A stretch of 34,322 bases of DNA from Paracoccaceae bacterium (GTDB lineage Bacteria; Pseudomonadota; Alphaproteobacteria; Rhodobacterales; Rhodobacteraceae). The translations under genes and the position numbers were made by a program. This document shows, one piece after another, positions 3,508 through 12,447 of this stretch (within the stretch, counting starts at the first letter, position 1; every line of letters starts with the position of its first letter). Below the pieces are notes generated by a model. The model was not told the DNA's origin, did not search any database, and worked only from the letters and a program-made list of their open reading frames with translations. The DNA lies in the NCBI GenBank assembly GCA_902525995.1, contig CABZJG010000003.1, positions 1 through 34,322 of the forward strand, read 5' to 3'.

Positions 3508-4830
3508 TCACTCCAAAGCCACGGTCAGCGCTTTTCCTAACTTTTCTGTGATTTCGCCAATTTGATCTTCACTGACAATAAATGGCGGCGCAAGCAATAT
3601 GTGGTCACCCTGTTTTCCATCCCGCGTTCCAGAATTTGGATAACAGATCAATCCCGCGTTAAACGCTGCTGATTTGATTTTTTTTGCGGTCTCAAGGCTA
3701 GGATCAAGCGGGGATTTCGTGGCACGGTCCGCCACCAATTCTATGCCCCAGAAAAGTCCACGCCCGCGAATATCACCAATGTTTTCGTGTTGCGCAAACT
3801 GCGCGCGCAAAGCGGTTTCCAAATCCGCGCCACGGCGTTGAACCTGATCAAAAAGGTTGCGGTTGATCAGTGCCTTTACCACAGCAAGCGCAGCAGCAGA
3901 GGCAACGGGATGTCCAATATAGGTGTGACCATGCTGAAAAAACCCCGAGCCCTTGGCGATGGTTTGATAGATCTCATCTGAGCATAGCATCGCGCCTATG
4001 GGCTGATAGCCCGCCCCAAGACCTTTGGCGATGCAAAGAATATCAGGGGCAACCTGATCAGCGTCACAGGCAAACATATGGCCCGTGCGCCCCATCCCGC
4101 ACATCACTTCATCAAAGATCAGCAAAACACCGTAGCTATCACAAATCTCTCGAATGCGTTTAAAATAGCCGTTGACGGCCGGAACAGCCCCCAAAGTTGC
4201 CCCGACCACCGGTTCAGCGATGAAGGCCATGACGGTGTCTGGCCCGAGCCGAAGCAGCTCATCTTCCAGCTCTTGCGCCACCCGTTGACCATAGTCATAG
4301 GCGGTTTCTTGGGGCAGACGACCAACATATTCATAACAGGGGGAAATATGGCTCACGTCGATTAAAAGCGGGGCAAACTGGGTGCGCCGGAACACATTTC
4401 CACCAGCGGCCAATGATCCCAATGTATTACCATGATAACTTTGGCGTCGGGCAATAACGTGTTTTCTTTGCGGCTCTTGGCGTTCCACATGATATTGGCG
4501 CGCCAATTTAAGAGCAGCCTCCGTTGCCTCTGATCCTCCCGAGACAAGATAGACACGCTTAAGATCGCCCGGTGCGCGGCTGATCAAAAGATCGGCCAGC
4601 TCTTCGGCCGGCTCTGAAGTGAAAAATCCTGTATGGGCAAAGGCAAGTTGCTCGGCCTGATGTTGAATGGCTGCAATGATATCTGGATCACCATGACCAA
4701 GGCAGGACACAGCAGCGCCGCCCGATCCATCAAAATACTGCTTTCCGGAGCTATCAACTAGGTAACATCCTTGACCACCAACCGCGGTGGGAACCTTGGA
4801 TTTAGAATGCCGTGGGAATATGTGGCTCAT
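3508..4830 (-). CDS. Class III (PLP-dependent, omega-type) aminotransferase
   Basis: LVSGGSEATEAALKLARQYH, SYHGNTLGSLA, LLIFDEVMCGMGRTG and PDILCIAKGLGAGYQPIGA (PLP lysine). Start taken at MSHIFPRHSK (4830) because of the ATGA overlap with the upstream BKACE stop; the ORF track extends to 4857. Confidence 0.93.
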   Translation of the reverse strand: MSHIFPRHSKSKVPTAVGGQGCYLVDSSGKQYFDGSGGAAVSCLGHGDPDIIAAIQHQAEQLAFAHTGFFTSEPAEELADLLISRAPGDLKRVYLVSGGSEATEAALKLARQYHVERQEPQRKHVIARRQSYHGNTLGSLAAGGNVFRRTQFAPLLIDVSHISPCYEYVGRLPQETAYDYGQRVAQELEDELLRLGPDTVMAFIAEPVVGATLGAVPAVNGYFKRIREICDSYGVLLIFDEVMCGMGRTGHMFACDADQVAPDILCIAKGLGAGYQPIGAMLCSDEIYQTIAKGSGFFQHGHTYIGHPVASAAALAVVKALINRNLFDQVQRRGADLETALRAQFAQHENIGDIRGRGLFWGIELVADRATKSPLDPSLETAKKIKSAAFNAGLICYPNSGTRDGKQGDHILLAPPFIVSEDQIGEITEKLGKALTVALE

Positions 4831-5630
4831 TGGAAAACCCCTTCTTGCGCCCGACAAGAGCGTGGGTAATACCCCGATAGTTTTGCAGCAGATACCAAGT
4901 TACCGACAGCGCAGGCGTTATCTGAAACAACGCGCCCGTCAGGCGCTTGGACATTATTCTCAAACCCTATTCTCGCATGACCGCCTAAAAAGATAGCCGC
5001 CAGTGCACAGCTTTGTTCAGCAGGTCCAAAGGCACAAACCGTCCACCGATAATTTGAACCGAGAGCACCGGTTAAAAAAGGAATAAGGTCTTCTGGGCGG
5101 GCCCGCACCTGAGGGCTGTATTGGCCCAAAACAAAAATCACATCTAGTGAGGTGTCCTTGATAATGCCCTCTTCAATCCAGTTTTTCAGCGTATGAAGGT
5201 CCTGCGTTGAATAGAGTATATGCTGAAGTTTCATACCTGTTTCGGCAGCCAACGCATAGGCTTTGCGTCCAAGCTTCGGATCGCGCGCCATCTCACGAAT
5301 TGATAGGCTGGCCGCTTTGGGGCGCAGCTGGTCCAAACATGCAAGTTGATCTGCAACATCATAAATGTTCATGGACTCGGTTGAAATTTGCACCTCAAGT
5401 CCGGGTGCGGCGGCCTGAACAGCATCAATGGCGTCTTGGTACCGGTCTAGGCCAAGGGAATGCCGCCCCGGTGCGTCGCGGACATGTAAATGAATACCAG
5501 TCGCGCCTTTGTTTTGTGCTTGGCGCGCTGTATCGGCCAATTCCTTTGCGCTCATGGGAAGGTTGGCATGATCTTGCTTTGTCATACGAGCACCGTTAGG
5601 GGCCACCATCAAGTCATATGTCTTTTGCAT
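4827..5630 (-). CDS. Beta-keto acid cleavage enzyme (BKACE, DUF849) family protein
   Basis: N-terminal MVAPNGARMTKQDHANLPMSAKELADTA, HLHVRD metal-ligand motif, FVLGQYSPQ and GGHARIGFENN motifs. Start assigned at MQKTYDLMVAP (5630); the track ORF starts at 5663. Confidence 0.85.
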   Translation of the reverse strand: MQKTYDLMVAPNGARMTKQDHANLPMSAKELADTARQAQNKGATGIHLHVRDAPGRHSLGLDRYQDAIDAVQAAAPGLEVQISTESMNIYDVADQLACLDQLRPKAASLSIREMARDPKLGRKAYALAAETGMKLQHILYSTQDLHTLKNWIEEGIIKDTSLDVIFVLGQYSPQVRARPEDLIPFLTGALGSNYRWTVCAFGPAEQSCALAAIFLGGHARIGFENNVQAPDGRVVSDNACAVGNLVSAAKLSGYYPRSCRAQEGVFQ

Positions 5631-5732
5631 CCACTCATCCCTTTCAACAAGACCCTGATCCAAATTATGTGCAAAGCCATATTTATGATTCTATTTGACA
5701 TCTGAATTACAAAAACATTCAATAGCATCAGG

Positions 5733-5750
5733 AAATAACATATGTTATTT
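5733..5750. promoter_or_regulatory. Perfect 18-bp palindrome AAATAACATATGTTATTT, candidate RpiR operator
   Basis: Exact self-reverse-complement, in the divergent intergenic region between the BKACE and rpiR genes, about 30 bp upstream of the rpiR ATG. Confidence 0.55.
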
Positions 5751-5780
5751 TTCGATCAGCAAAAAAAGGAATGATTCGCG

Positions 5781-6677
5781 ATGGACCCAACATTAAAATC
5801 CAAAACAATTTCAAAGCTTAAAGATGAAATTGAGCACCTATCCCCACAGCTGAGAACAGCTGCAAAATACGTTATTGATAACCCTGCAGACTTTGGTTTG
5901 GACCCTATTCGTGAAACCTCGCGTAAGTCAGGAGTAAGTACATATACATTGGTTAGAACCGCCCACCGTTTGGGGTTTTCAAGTTACGAAGAGTTCCGAG
6001 AACCGTTTCGACATGCGCTTGTATCGACCTCAGAATTTATTCAAGAACCGGCCTGGGTTGATGAGCTGCGAGAAAGCGGAGATATTGGCCGGGTTCAAGC
6101 CGAGGCAACGCGCAATGCAATGTCAATAGTTCAAAGGTCACTTGAGCGCCAATCAACCGATGAGCTTAAAGAAGTGGTTGATACCCTACTTGCAGCCCGC
6201 AATGTCTATTTGACCGCTGTGCGTTCAAGTTATGCCATGGCATATTACTTTCACTATGTAGGCCGTATGGCATTGACATCATTGCAGTTAATTCCCCGAA
6301 ATATGAACAGCGCCATTGATGAGCTTAACTATGCCGGACCCGGAGATGTTCTGATTGCAATCACCATCACGCCCTACTCTCGCGAAACTATTCAAGCCTG
6401 TGAATTTGCCAGAAAAAAAGGCGTCAAGCTGATCCTCATAACCAATTCAGACATTGTATCGCCAGAATTAAAACCGGAATATGTTCTGGTCACATCGGTT
6501 ATCAGCACGCATCACTTCGGCTGCTTCACTGGCATGCTTGCTACACTTGAATTATTGCTGGCGCTATTGGTTAGCCGTGGTGGCGATGCGGCGCGCGAGC
6601 GAATCAAATCCTATGAAGATTTGCGAGCGGAAAACAATGCGTATTGGGTGCGAAAAAAAACATTAGTTTTTAGGTGA
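5781..6677 (+). CDS. RpiR-family transcriptional regulator (HTH + SIS domain)
   Basis: N-terminal HTH_6-like region (LSPQLRTAAKYVIDNPADFGLDPIRETSRKSGVSTYTLVRTAHRLGFSSYEEFREPFR) and SIS-like C-terminal region (PGDVLIAITITPYSRETIQACEFARKKGVKLILITNS). Confidence 0.9.
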   Translation: MDPTLKSKTISKLKDEIEHLSPQLRTAAKYVIDNPADFGLDPIRETSRKSGVSTYTLVRTAHRLGFSSYEEFREPFRHALVSTSEFIQEPAWVDELRESGDIGRVQAEATRNAMSIVQRSLERQSTDELKEVVDTLLAARNVYLTAVRSSYAMAYYFHYVGRMALTSLQLIPRNMNSAIDELNYAGPGDVLIAITITPYSRETIQACEFARKKGVKLILITNSDIVSPELKPEYVLVTSVISTHHFGCFTGMLATLELLLALLVSRGGDAARERIKSYEDLRAENNAYWVRKKTLVFR

Positions 6678-6718
6678 CAAGCGGGCGTTAGTTCGCAACT
6701 CTTTTACACATTCAAAGG

Positions 6719-6737
6719 GCAGAACATGTCGTTCTGC
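6719..6737. promoter_or_regulatory. Inverted repeat GCAGAAC-atgtc-GTTCTGC upstream of the TAXI solute-binding gene
   Basis: 7-bp perfect arms with 5-nt spacer, 22 bp upstream of the ATG at 6759. Confidence 0.4.
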
Positions 6738-6758
6738 TGATCGACTTGGGAGAACAAA

Positions 6759-7727
6759 ATGAAATATAGTAATTGGTTTAGTGGCCTGGCAGCAGCAGCA
6801 GCTTTGTCTGTTGGAAGCATCGCGAGCGCAGAACAGCAGTTTATCTCGATCGGAACGGGCGGCGTAACCGGGGTTTATTATCCAACTGGTGGCGCAATTT
6901 GCCGTTTGGTCAACCGCGACCGCAAAGAGCACGGCATTCGCTGTGCGGTCGAATCCACCGGCGGGTCAGTCTATAACATCAACACCATCAAAGCCGGCGA
7001 GCTTGAGTTCGGCGTTGCCCAGTCTGACTGGCAGCACCATGCCTATAACGGGACATCAAAATTCTCAGACAACCCGTTCCCGAACATCCGCGCGATGTTC
7101 TCGGTTCACCCAGAGCCCTTCACACTTCTGGTTCGTGCCGACAGCGGCATCACTTCTTTTGAAGGGCTGAAAGGCAACCGTGTAAATGTTGGTAACCCTG
7201 GTTCAGGCCAGCGCGCGACCATGGAAGTTGTGATGGAAGCCTTTGGCATGGGCATGGATGACTTTAGCCTTGCAACAGAATACAAAGGCTCAGAAATGGC
7301 CAAGCAGATCTGCGACAACAACATCGACGCGATGATCTACACCATTGGTCACCCAGCTGCTGCGATTAAAGAAGCAACAACCAGCTGCGATGTAAAACTG
7401 GTTTCCGTAACAGGTGCGCCGATCGACAAACTGGTTGCCGACAACCCATATTACCGCGTTGCGACCGTCCCTGGCGGCATGTATGCGGGCAACCCGGATG
7501 ACACCACCACCTTTGGTGTGGGCGCAACTTTCGTCACCTCAACTGATATTTCAGACGACGTGGCCTATATTGTTGCCAAATCAGTGATGTCAAACCTCGA
7601 TGACTTCCGCAAACTGCACCCAGCCTTTGCAAATCTGGACGCGGCGCAGATGATCTCTGATGGTTTGTCCGCACCGCTGCATCCTGGTGCTGCCAAGGCC
7701 TACAAAGAGCTTGGCTTGATGAACTAA
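6759..7727 (+). CDS. TAXI family TRAP transporter solute-binding protein
   Basis: Signal peptide; IGTGGVTGVYYPTGGAICRLVNRDRKEHGIRCAVESTGGSVYNINTIKAGELEFGVAQSDW and GNPGSGQR are hallmark TAXI motifs. Confidence 0.95.
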   Translation: MKYSNWFSGLAAAAALSVGSIASAEQQFISIGTGGVTGVYYPTGGAICRLVNRDRKEHGIRCAVESTGGSVYNINTIKAGELEFGVAQSDWQHHAYNGTSKFSDNPFPNIRAMFSVHPEPFTLLVRADSGITSFEGLKGNRVNVGNPGSGQRATMEVVMEAFGMGMDDFSLATEYKGSEMAKQICDNNIDAMIYTIGHPAAAIKEATTSCDVKLVSVTGAPIDKLVADNPYYRVATVPGGMYAGNPDDTTTFGVGATFVTSTDISDDVAYIVAKSVMSNLDDFRKLHPAFANLDAAQMISDGLSAPLHPGAAKAYKELGLMN

Positions 7728-7757
7728 GAGCGGATCACATCTGTTCTTGAAAAAATA

Positions 7758-7792
7758 CCCAGCGCTTTCACATTGCGCTGGGCTCTTTTTTA
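7758..7792 (+). terminator. Rho-independent terminator/attenuator between TAXI SBP and TRAP permease
   Basis: CCCAGCGC-tttcacatt-GCGCTGGG followed by a T-rich tract (ctcttttttt). Confidence 0.85.
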
Positions 7793-7827
7793 ATTAGGGT
7801 ATTCTTAAAAAAGTACGGGATGTAAAA

Positions 7828-10452
7828 ATGAGCGAAGACGGAGCTAAATCAGCACAGGAAATGGTCGCGGAAACAGACTCAGGTGGACGTGTCTTAACCG
7901 GTTCGATGGGCAAAACTTTGTTCTACTTGTGTATTTTATGGTCTTTGTTTCAACTGTATATCGCATCGAAAGTTCCAGGGGTTTTAGCCCAAGCCACTGG
8001 TGTAAGCGATTTTGCCAATATCGTTGCGCAAGCACGCTATGTGCACTTGGCTTTTGCAATGGCGCTGGCAACACTTGCCTTCCCGCTTTTCGGCCATAAA
8101 CGCCATATTCCGCTTTACGACTGGGCTTTGGTTGTCTTGGGGGTCTCAGCCTGTCTTTATCTGGTCATTTTCCGGTTTGAGATTGCCGACCGCCCGGGTC
8201 TTTGGACCACCACTGACATTGTGATGTCTGCCATTGGTATGATGGTTTTAATGATTTCAGTGTTTCGCACATTGGGGCTGCCATTGATGGTAATCGCAAG
8301 TGCTTTTTTAATGCTAGCCTTTTTTGGCGGGTATTCGGAGTGGGTGGGCAACGTCACAAATTATGGTGGCGCATCTTTCAAAAAGGCGATGGGCCATTAT
8401 TGGATGCAGACCGAAGGCGTATTTGGCGTGGCGTTGGGCGTTTCCACAACAATGATCTTTCTCTTTGTTCTTTTCGGTGCTTTGTTTGAAAAGGCTGGGG
8501 GCGGAAACTGGTTCATCAAAGTAGCTGTTGCCCTTTTGGGTGCGCTACGTGGCGGCCCGGCCAAAGCAGCTGTTTTATCTTCGATGATGACAGGAATGAT
8601 ATCGGGGTCCTCTATTGCCAACACTGTAATCACGGGAACATTTACGATCCCGCTGATGAATCGGATCGGGTTTTCACGAGAAAAGGCTGGCGCAGTTGAG
8701 GTTGCATCCTCAACCAATGGCCAGCTTACGCCTCCTTTCATGGGAGCGGCCGCCTTCTTGATGGTGGAATACGTCAATATCTCTTACATTGAGGTGATGA
8801 AGCACGCTTTTCTACCCGCCGTGATTTCCTATATTGCTTTACTGTATATCGTTCATCTTGAAAGCCTGAAGTTAGGACTAAAAGGTCTTGAAAAGCCGGG
8901 ACGCAACATCGGTGTTTTGATGATCCTCATCATGTTTCTTACCGGTTTTTTTGCAATGGCTGCGATTACAGTGGCAGCCATCATTTTCCGTGTTCTGCTT
9001 GAGCCCATAATGCCCGGGGCAACGGTTTATCCTTCTTTGGTCTTGCTAGGGCTGGCCTACTTAGCATTGGTGTTTGTCGCTGCGCGCTATCCTGATATTG
9101 AGATAGATGATCCAAATGCAGAGAGCCTTAAGGCACCAAGATTGACACCGACATTTCTGGCGGGTGCCTATTTCGCACTGCCAATTTTTGTTCTGGTCTG
9201 GAACTTAATGGTGCGCACTGAGCACATGGACCGATTGTCACCGGCTCTTTCGGTATTTTGGGCTACTTTTGCAATGATCATAGTCGCTTTGACCCACAAA
9301 CCGCTCAAAGATATGTTTCGCGGCGGCGCTATGGCTAGCAGCGGCTATGCACGCGGTTTTCATGATTTGGTAAATGGGCTTGAAGCGGGCGCACGAAATA
9401 TGATCAGCATCGGGGTGGCTACCGGTGCCGCTGGGATCATTGTGGGTACAATATCTTTAACCGGTGCCCATCAGATCATTGGACAGGTCATCGAAACCAT
9501 TTCGGGTGGCAATCTCATTATCTTGCTCGTCCTAGTTGCAATATTATCGCTGATTTTAGGAATGGGTCTACCAACCACTGTTAATTATATCGTGGTTTCA
9601 TCTCTTATGGCGCCTGTCATTGTGTCCGTCGGGGCGCAGTCCGGTCTTATTGTACCGCTTATTGCGGTTCATATGTTTGTCTTTTATTTTGGCATCTTGG
9701 CCGACGATACACCGCCCGTCGGCCTTGCAGCTTATGCCGCTGCAGCCATTTCGCGTGGGGATCCGATAAAAACCGGCCTGCAGGGGTTTAGCTATGATAT
9801 TCGAACCGCGCTTTTGCCGTTCATGTTTATATTCAACACGGATTTGCTGCTCATTGATGTTGGCCCTGCCAAAGCCGTTTTAGTGTTTTTTGTATCATTG
9901 GTGGCTATGTTGCTGTTTGCCGCCGCAACCCAAGGCTATTTCATCGCCAAAAGCAGGCGCTGGGAAACAGCGGTGATCTTGTTGATTGTCTTCACTCTTT
10001 TCAGGCCAGATTTTTGGCTAAACGTGGCCCAAGACGAGTATACTGCATCTTCAGGGCCAGCTGCGATAGACGCAGTTGGATCCGTTCCGCTTGGAACACC
10101 AGTAAGGTTGGTCATATCGGCCCCTGACTTTGACACCGGCGAAGTTGGCACAAAAACGATTGTTTTGATACCAGAGCAAGACGCAGGCGGTTTAGAGCGC
10201 CTTAGTGCCGTGGGTCTTGATGTGTTTGAAGAGGGTGATGTTTTAAGGGTGGATGAACCTTTCCCGGGAACACCATATTTTGAGACTCTGGCAAACGAAT
10301 ATGATTTTTATGCTGATGAGCCCGTACAGATTATATCTGCCGAGGTTCCAAATGATCGCATGCCCAAAGAGATATTCTTTTTGCCGGCCTTTTTACTTTT
10401 GGGACTAATCATTTTGATACAAAGGCGCCGCGCAACACAGCCAGCGTTTTAA
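7828..10452 (+). CDS. Fused TRAP transporter permease (4TM + 12TM) with C-terminal DUF3394-like region
   Basis: 874 aa, many TM helices; SSMMTGMISGSSIANTVITGTFTIPLMNRIGF, GQLTPPFMGAAAFLMVEY, LILGMGLPTTVNYIVVSSLMAPVI, and a C-terminal non-transport extension ending in a TM helix. Confidence 0.94.
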   Translation: MSEDGAKSAQEMVAETDSGGRVLTGSMGKTLFYLCILWSLFQLYIASKVPGVLAQATGVSDFANIVAQARYVHLAFAMALATLAFPLFGHKRHIPLYDWALVVLGVSACLYLVIFRFEIADRPGLWTTTDIVMSAIGMMVLMISVFRTLGLPLMVIASAFLMLAFFGGYSEWVGNVTNYGGASFKKAMGHYWMQTEGVFGVALGVSTTMIFLFVLFGALFEKAGGGNWFIKVAVALLGALRGGPAKAAVLSSMMTGMISGSSIANTVITGTFTIPLMNRIGFSREKAGAVEVASSTNGQLTPPFMGAAAFLMVEYVNISYIEVMKHAFLPAVISYIALLYIVHLESLKLGLKGLEKPGRNIGVLMILIMFLTGFFAMAAITVAAIIFRVLLEPIMPGATVYPSLVLLGLAYLALVFVAARYPDIEIDDPNAESLKAPRLTPTFLAGAYFALPIFVLVWNLMVRTEHMDRLSPALSVFWATFAMIIVALTHKPLKDMFRGGAMASSGYARGFHDLVNGLEAGARNMISIGVATGAAGIIVGTISLTGAHQIIGQVIETISGGNLIILLVLVAILSLILGMGLPTTVNYIVVSSLMAPVIVSVGAQSGLIVPLIAVHMFVFYFGILADDTPPVGLAAYAAAAISRGDPIKTGLQGFSYDIRTALLPFMFIFNTDLLLIDVGPAKAVLVFFVSLVAMLLFAAATQGYFIAKSRRWETAVILLIVFTLFRPDFWLNVAQDEYTASSGPAAIDAVGSVPLGTPVRLVISAPDFDTGEVGTKTIVLIPEQDAGGLERLSAVGLDVFEEGDVLRVDEPFPGTPYFETLANEYDFYADEPVQIISAEVPNDRMPKEIFFLPAFLLLGLIILIQRRRATQPAF

Positions 10453-10704: not shown

Positions 10705-10827
10705 TTACTCACTGCTAGAGTCTGAACCACCATCAAACCAACCCAGTGGGTTTAGATTATAATCTTCTACGACACTACATGCAGAAAGCCCCAATACAAC
10801 GATTGATAATGCAAGATATTTTTTCAT
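10705..10827 (-). CDS. Small lipoprotein, 40 aa (MKKYLALSIVVLGLSACSVVEDYNLNPLGWFDGGSDSSSE)
   Basis: Read from the minus strand; absent from the ORF track, apparently because of its length. Basic N-terminus, hydrophobic core, lipobox LSA|C, SD-like GGAGA 8 nt upstream of ATG, stop TAA, terminator hairpin downstream. Confidence 0.75.
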   Translation of the reverse strand: MKKYLALSIVVLGLSACSVVEDYNLNPLGWFDGGSDSSSE

Positions 10828-11100
10828 TTTTTCGTTCTCCAAGTTTACTGCGTATATCAATGCCAAAATTATCAAAAAGATCAACCAATAAGACAGAAAG
10901 AAAGTAATTATTTTGGAATTTTTGCCTCAAAAATAGAACCATTTCTTCGATGGAAACGGATTTTTTATTTGGCTTAGATATCTTTTTGAATGTAACGATC
11001 TAAAGATATCAGATGGTTTGAGATTATTTGCCAAACAAACTATACTCAATCTTGTTTGTTAAAAGCCTTGTAGAAACTTTGAAAAGAAGTGGGGTTTTAA

Positions 11101-11568
11101 GTGGTAAGAGTATCTTTGGCAGCTTTTTCGATGATGGTCGGTTTCTGGTCGCAAAGCGCGCTTTCCGATGAAATGTTACCCTGCGGAATTATGTTGAAAT
11201 TTGGTCAGGACGCCACAGGCTCCGTGGCCAATTACACCTTATCGGCTCAAGTCAAAAACCCCACGGGCCGATCAGTTTCCGGCGTATCCGTTCTATTTTA
11301 TAATTCAAACGATAATTTGCTTGGAAACACAGAGCTAAATTGCAAAGAGCGCGGACACACGCTTGAGCCGGGCAGCACCGGACAATGCTCAATGTTACTG
11401 CAAACAATCGATGGAAAAATGATGGAAAATTTTGGAACTGAAATGTGGACAGCTATTGTGAATGTGCAACTGCAAAAACTGAACAGCATTTCCAAGTGCC
11501 AATTGCTAGGGTTTCGCTACACCAATCAGGATCGGCTTGAAAACATCACAAGCGGCAGCGATAAATAG
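11101..11568 (+). CDS. Secreted hypothetical protein with FxLYD-like beta domain
   Basis: GTG start, signal-peptide-like N-terminus, pattern NYTLSAQVKNPTGRSVSGVSVLFYNSNDNLLGNTEL...LEPGSTGQCSMLL resembling FxLYD-type domains, four cysteines in the putative mature part. Confidence 0.6.
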   Translation: MVRVSLAAFSMMVGFWSQSALSDEMLPCGIMLKFGQDATGSVANYTLSAQVKNPTGRSVSGVSVLFYNSNDNLLGNTELNCKERGHTLEPGSTGQCSMLLQTIDGKMMENFGTEMWTAIVNVQLQKLNSISKCQLLGFRYTNQDRLENITSGSDK

Positions 11569-11604: not shown

Positions 11605-12030
11605 TTAGGTTAGTTTGTCACGCTCTAGTCTAATTTCCTCTAATTTTTTTTCACGCAAAAACTCATAATTAATGCCAGCCATTGCTTTTAGGGATGCCAA
11701 CATCGACTGGCCGTTTTTGGTTGTAGAATCCAGCTGCTGTCCGGCAATGTCCAAAATCACCAAATACGATGACTTTTTTTCAATGTGTTGAAATGCCTTT
11801 TCGAAGTCTTCCGGTTGATAGCCCAAACTCGAGAGTTTGTTGACAACAAACTTATCATCTTTCCTCAAGCAGTTTAACGCCATATGCAACTGATAGCGTT
11901 CCTCACTGCTTGCGGTTTGTTCTTGATAGATGTTTTCTTCAAGGCATCCGTAGTTTTTTAACGCCTCAATCTCCAGATCACTGTCTTCTTTTGGCTGGAC
12001 CAATGCAGTCCTAGAATACCCAACCAACAT
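11605..12030 (-). CDS. Serine recombinase (resolvase N-terminal domain)-like protein, catalytic residues substituted, no DNA-binding domain
   Basis: MLVGYSRTALVQPKEDSDLEIEALKNYGC...SEERYQLHMALNCLRKDDKFVVNKLSSLGYQPEDF...QLDSTTKNGQSMLASLKAMAGINYEFLREKKLEEIRLERDKL follows the resolvase-domain pattern (GYaRvSt..., RP.l..al..lr.GD.lvv.klDRLGRs..dl, iDT.s..Gr....m.a.aefEreliRER). Confidence 0.75.
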   Translation of the reverse strand: MLVGYSRTALVQPKEDSDLEIEALKNYGCLEENIYQEQTASSEERYQLHMALNCLRKDDKFVVNKLSSLGYQPEDFEKAFQHIEKKSSYLVILDIAGQQLDSTTKNGQSMLASLKAMAGINYEFLREKKLEEIRLERDKLT

Positions 12031-12208
12031 GTCATGCCCCTTTAAAAACCACTTTCAGAAAATTTAGTATTTATGTGAGTATGTAAGCAAATAGCCCCGC
12101 TGTAATCAATTTTATTGTCTCATAAGAACTTCAGTCCGACATTTACGGCCGATTGAATTCAACTTTTTTGGTGAATTCAGGGACATTCGATGACAGTTCA
12201 TATGAAAA

Positions 12209-12227
12209 GCCGGGCGCTTTGCCCGGC
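12209..12227. repeat. GC-rich hairpin GCCGGGC-gcttt-GCCCGGC
   Basis: 7-bp perfect inverted repeat, followed on the minus strand by TTTT, and placed just upstream of a strong SD on the plus strand. Confidence 0.55.
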
Positions 12228-12247
12228 CAGTATCTTGGGGAGGAAAT

Positions 12248-12298
12248 ATGAAAATGATCTTCTGCCTATTGATACGGCGCTTTGCTCTAATTGTTTAA
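12248..12298 (+). other. Very short ORF (MKMIFCLLIRRFALIV, 16 aa) with strong SD; leader peptide or gene remnant
   Basis: GGGGAGGAAAT-ATG start context and TAA stop; upstream of the FAH-dctQM genes. Confidence 0.4.
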
Positions 12299-12338
12299 TG
12301 CTAAAGCCCTAAGGCCAATACTACGATAAAGAGTTTGC

Positions 12339-12380
12339 GCAGCTTATTTTGCTGCTTTTGGCTTTTTTTACCAAAGCCAA
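12339..12380 (+). terminator. Tandem hairpins (GCAGC-ttatttt-GCTGC and TTGGCTTT-ttttacc-AAAGCCAA), possible attenuator
   Basis: Short stem followed by TTTTGGCTTTTTTT, then an 8-bp inverted repeat, between the 16-aa ORF and the FAH-family start. Confidence 0.4.
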
Positions 12381-12447
12381 GTGTGTTTTGCTTTACTTTT
12401 CAACTGTTCAGTTAGTAAGCCTTTTGCAAACCATAGGAGTGCTTAAC

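Follow-up and report, generated by a model that had tools for sequence, protein, structure and literature searches.

The window, by which we mean the whole 34,322-nucleotide stretch of DNA analysed here, carries on its reverse strand an open reading frame of 141 codons (11605-12030, ATG to TAA) whose product resembles the catalytic domain of a serine recombinase, and next to it a gene for a small, apparently secreted protein. The features of the locus, with the evidence for each, are as follows:

11605-12030, (-) strand: stand-alone, to all appearance catalytically dead serine-recombinase catalytic-domain protein of 141 aa (the pseudo-recombinase), from PF00239, motif losses, orthologues and dN/dS.
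12004-12021, (-) strand: GYSRTA motif (residues 4-9), with the R8 equivalent kept as R7 and the nucleophile Ser replaced by Ala9; Ser in 55/55 full-size comparators.
11818-11832, (-) strand: SSLGY (residues 67-71) in place of DRLGR, with D67, R68 and R71 lost; in the comparators R68 and R71 are present in 55/55 and D67 in 53/55.
11608-11712, (-) strand: E-helix region (residues 107-141), with the helix kept (AF2 helix 107-140), the E118 and R125 equivalents and the arm columns lost (column table), and no HTH after it.
12037-12043, (-) strand: Shine-Dalgarno-like AAAGGGG 5' of the ATG, kept in an alignment of three species.
12081-12109, (-) strand: tentative promoter-like pair TTGATT-17-TTACAT, in a conserved alignment block and below the consensus threshold of the scan tool.
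11101-11568, (+) strand: small secreted protein with four invariant Cys and a predicted beta-sandwich plus two helices, convergent with the pseudo-recombinase gene; the two adjoin in 10/11 genomes.

The 141-aa protein matched the Pfam Resolvase family PF00239 over residues 3-135 (profile positions 2-138 of 145) with an E-value of 2.2e-12 and a score of 47.7 bits against a cut-off of 23.3, and its sequence matches in the PDB, which were weak, were to Sin and gamma-delta resolvase. An AF2 model built from its own family alignment (mean pLDDT 78, with the C-terminal helix less certain) predicted a resolvase fold with a long E-helix. The 33 best PDB structure matches of this model were serine recombinases (gamma-delta, Tn3, Sin, Gin and others), the best being 1zr2 (E 3e-9, TM 0.73), and serine recombinases were the only matches at E < 0.001. 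Homology and predicted fold confirm the protein as a serine-recombinase catalytic domain, and bear out the first-pass annotation, which had recognized the resolvase pattern over the full 141 residues and had named a non-resolvase fold as what would speak against it. No HTH or other Pfam domain was found at the C-terminus, and the stop lies at 140-145 aa in 11/11 family members; in three species it occupies the same position, with the convergent neighbour ending 36 bp on, so that the absence of a C-terminal DNA-binding domain, also noted at first pass, stands. NCBIfam and PADLOC hold no family specific to this protein, and its match in PHROGs was to a general DNA-invertase family only.

In both congeners that carry the gene, TTAAAT replaces TTACAT in the promoter-like pair. 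GC content is 0.36-0.46 across 10.5-12.5 kb compared with 0.46-0.55 in the flanks, in agreement with the early description of the patch as AT-rich; its description as sparsely coding held only in part, since the conserved 155-aa gene at 11101-11568 lies within it. A possible small lipoprotein ORF with no Pfam match (MKKYLALSIVVLGLSACSVVEDY...) is found at 10705-10884 (-). Upstream of the pseudo-recombinase gene, an intergenic stretch at 12190-12430 (-) is conserved in three species, all of which share a GC-rich, terminator-like hairpin (12208-12228) preceded by a CCUCCCC anti-Shine-Dalgarno-like motif. This stretch folds better than its shuffles (z -2.2) and has no Rfam match; it might represent one of the CUCCUCCC-containing small RNAs known from Rhodobacter.

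We compared the active site with those of 55 full-size recombinases from Rhodobacteraceae and other Alphaproteobacteria, in which S10, R68 and R71 are invariant. In the window protein the nucleophile is Ala9, as had been read from GYSRTAL, and D67, R68 and R71 are replaced by S67, S68 and Y71; E118 is lost and R125 is Lys, whereas E124 is kept. The loss of both active-site arginines had been proposed from SSLGY, and this is correct for R68 and R71; however, the R8 and R45 equivalents (R7 and R45) remain, which makes two of four active-site arginines retained. The structural columns G4, Y5, L24, G28, L48, R56, D59, V62, D101 and G107 are also kept. The Tn3 resolvase uses S10 as its nucleophile; its R8 and R68 contact the scissile phosphate, and R71 has been proposed to do so (PMC4499144). 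Since residues needed for catalysis are lost, DNA strand exchange by the pseudo-recombinase is very unlikely, as judged from its sequence.

The same losses recur throughout the family of 11 members, where truncation and the absence of D67 and R71 are common to all and R68 is lost in 10/11 (it persists in G452). The nucleophile position is Ala or Gly in 10/11; the single Ser, in G453, is found in a protein that is without D67, R68 and R71. R8, on the other hand, is kept in 11/11 and R45 in 10/11. Catalytic columns were lost more often than other conserved columns (6/9 versus 7/23), but this concentration is not significant (Fisher p 0.11), because columns of the C-terminal arm were lost as well. 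Ten residues that are not conserved in active enzymes are conserved in the family (Q12, N53, K60, S67, S87, V91, D94, S102, K105 and K129), a pattern that points to a new constraint.

The window comes from a 60%-complete assembly. Two of the three congeners examined carry the gene, at 95% and 90-91% identity and with unchanged length and stop, while in the third assembly (62% complete) neither it nor its partner was found. A profile search of 397 genomes of the family gave two more short, stand-alone members in two other genera, and searches around these brought the total to 11 genomes in three Rhodobacteraceae genera, all with intact genes of 140-145 aa that are 40-95% identical to the window protein at the protein level. 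Among 385 genomes of the class, every other match with an E-value of 1e-20 or below was to a full-size recombinase.

Within the window's genus, dN/dS values for three pairs were 0.025, 0.052 and 0.031, at dS of 0.8-1.2; these are at or below the values of most neighbouring genes, whose orthologues range from 0.016 to 0.17 (0.08-0.17 for the secreted neighbour). Single pairs from the other two genera gave 0.115 and 0.13. These values exclude relaxed selection on the pseudo-recombinase. A pseudogene is likewise ruled out by dN/dS and the intact orthologues, and a chance reading frame by the extensive synonymous change that has accumulated while the protein was conserved. In a tree with the 55 active recombinases, the 11 sequences form one clade (support 100/100) whose stem measures 2.17 changes per site, and G453 is basal within it; without an outgroup the three genera separate, so that the serine may have been lost once or more often.

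The locus gave little sign of mobility. No inverted repeats were found flanking the window gene, and the same neighbours surround it in three species, in a chromosomal and stable position. Plasmid matches were distant, full recombinases of at most 36% identity. Searches of phage and viral collections returned no relatives of the 141-aa protein, which led us to reject a present-day phage origin, although the viral scan, of two peptide patterns only, is a weak test. Elsewhere in the window's genome, an intact 200-aa serine recombinase lies beside a transposase-like fragment (L002, 1228-1830, (-)); in this protein too Ser replaces D67, yet the catalytic Ser and the arginines are kept.

The first-pass annotation had left two options for an intact gene of this kind, a repurposed protein or the early decay of a mobile-element gene. 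Decay, with the frame still open by chance, could account for the truncation, the lost catalytic residues and the AT-rich surroundings. It is refuted for the three genera sampled, where dN/dS of 0.025-0.05 with extensive synonymous change, intact genes in 11 genomes, conserved neighbours and the absence of flanking inverted repeats leave it hardly any probability. The comparison of orthologues that had been suggested as a check found purifying selection in three genera, and not a frame restricted to one strain and under relaxed selection; with the resolvase fold and the shared catalytic losses, it is the repurposed protein that is upheld. That its new role is specifically regulatory or one of protein-protein contact is what we infer.

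The neighbouring gene encodes 155 aa in the window and 142-162 aa across its family, with a signal-peptide-like start, and has neither a Pfam family nor a PDB fold match at E < 0.001. The two genes are convergent in the window's genus (gaps of 35-36 bp) and in the second genus (9 bp), and in the third they face the same way, separated by +10, +2, -1 and -4 bp, a spacing like that of a co-translated operon. The link is close but not obligate, since in G451, from the third genus, the partner is reduced to a fragment beside an intact pseudo-recombinase, and three genomes of other genera (G369, G314 and G438) have a partner homologue with no pseudo-recombinase detectable by profile. The partner family (homologues L079, L080 and L081) is wider in Rhodobacteraceae than the pseudo-recombinase; in G438 the homologue adjoins, by eye, a flagellin-like ORF. 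Only the partner, and not the pseudo-recombinase, carries a signal peptide, so the two proteins are probably unable to make direct contact. Trees built for the partner and for the metallo-beta-lactamase-fold (MBL) protein described below were too small or unbalanced to separate vertical from horizontal spread.

Upstream of the pair, the second and third genera carry genes for an MBL-fold hydrolase and for a cNMP-binding protein of 113 aa. Just beyond these, G440 and G452, the two genomes checked, have a class III adenylate/guanylate cyclase gene, and the third genus has a LuxR-type response regulator on the opposite side of the pair. The hydrolase and the stand-alone 113-aa protein are themselves conserved (L097 11036-13683, L098, L099, L103 and L104), and L097 and L104 also have a class III cyclase close by; in G048 a related MBL/cNMP-binding pair follows, by eye, a CheB-like ORF. 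In the window's genus the arrangement is different. In G002 the pair lies between TsaE and an FAA-hydrolase/TRAP operon, with the MBL and cNMP-binding genes some 80 kb away; in the window, TsaE and the pair are separated by a TAXI-TRAP block. This block (3508-10452), which includes an RpiR-like regulator and a BKACE-family gene, is absent from that position in two congeners, where TsaE is close to the pair.

We consider that the gene is best explained as a pseudo-recombinase that has been exapted for a regulatory role involving protein interaction, probably in signalling, and would give this reading a probability of roughly 0.6. Around the separation of the three genera, or earlier, a serine-resolvase catalytic domain would have shed its DNA-binding domain together with most catalytic residues, after which purifying selection would have kept the protein for a job other than recombination. 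The protein would be cytoplasmic, might form oligomers by means of its remaining core and E-helix, and would serve as an adaptor with a regulatory function in a signalling pathway, one of whose outputs may be the secreted partner. Its action would take place through protein contact, or through a phosphate-containing ligand bound by R7 and R45, and not through DNA cutting. Against the signalling part of this proposal, the pair is not beside signalling genes in the window's genus, and the link comes from two genera. A more specific version, in which the old scissile-phosphate pocket (R7, R45, the new S67, D94, K105 and K60) binds the nucleotide messenger of the neighbouring cyclase and relays it to expression of the partner, strikes us as a long shot.

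Other functions can be envisaged for a conserved domain of this type. As an oligomeric transcription or nucleoid factor, it would bind DNA weakly through the basic end of the E-helix, without an HTH, and regulate neighbours such as the adjacent partner gene. The end of the E-helix runs along the minor groove in resolvases, and REKKxE...R is conserved at the C-terminus of the family. Binding of this kind may occur, but the family lacks the arm columns and the HTH as well as R68 and R71, the residues positioned on the phosphate in resolvases, and no inverted repeat was found around the window gene; we regard this role as unlikely. The domain could instead join active serine recombinases, such as transposon resolvases or invertases, through its dimer and tetramer surfaces and poison or tune them. 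The core and E-helix needed for this are retained, active serine recombinases are present in several of the genomes, and an activated Tn3 resolvase carrying S10A still makes synaptic complexes (PMC4499144). As a general function this proposal is nevertheless improbable: in G381 (97% complete) no PF00239 protein was found other than the pseudo-recombinase, and the same is true of the less complete G449 and G451. None of the active recombinases found is more than 37% identical to the pseudo-recombinase, which is low for mixed assembly, and the linkage to a secreted protein would be left unexplained.

Given the signalling genes, the protein might also be an accessory part of a cyclic-nucleotide antiviral (Pycsar-like) module together with the cyclase, the MBL hydrolase and the cNMP-binding protein. 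Indeed, the cyclase and cNMP-binding proteins of G440 match PADLOC profiles for Pycsar cyclase and effector (E 5e-30 and 1e-9), but such matches are expected from common shared domains. In addition, no TIR or membrane effector was found, the G440 cNMP-binding domain is bare, the cluster is stably placed, and the MBL protein has no match in the defence library. In the window's genus the pair sits elsewhere and the cyclase/effector set is absent beside the window gene. A defence role is therefore very improbable, and the regulatory pseudo-recombinase remains the reading that we favour.

The pseudo-recombinase shares with the small serine recombinases (gamma-delta/Tn3, Sin, Gin) the fold, the R8, R45 and E124 equivalents, structural Gly, Leu, Val and Asp residues and the long E-helix; unlike them, it has no nucleophile Ser, D67, R68, R71, E118, arm or C-terminal HTH, and it is chromosomal and stably placed. 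Its nearest active relatives by profile score are alphaproteobacterial GYARTST-type resolvases (e.g. L037, L038, L039 and L005), with which it has LVIL..GGQ.(I/M)D(T/S)(T/S)T..G in common. These enzymes, however, are of about 180-217 aa, carry a C-terminal DNA-binding part and a full active site, and are separated from it by the long stem. The engineered S10A Tn3 resolvase has the same replacement of the nucleophile Ser by Ala (PMC4499144), but this laboratory mutant retains the arginines and the DNA-binding domain, whereas the loss described here is natural, wider and conserved. Recruited mobile-element serine recombinases covered in a review work as recombinases, for example as active invertases (PMC8987985), and our search of open-licence papers turned up no serine recombinase family described as domesticated, or as conserved, dead and stand-alone.

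A database annotation such as 'recombinase family protein' can thus mislead on function. The pseudo-recombinase and its linked secreted protein form a small, defined pair for direct testing. The domestication of mobile-element enzymes is a familiar theme; a conserved family found in nature that is under strong purifying selection while lacking catalysis and the DNA-binding domain would show that the serine-recombinase fold lends itself to reuse as a pseudoenzyme.
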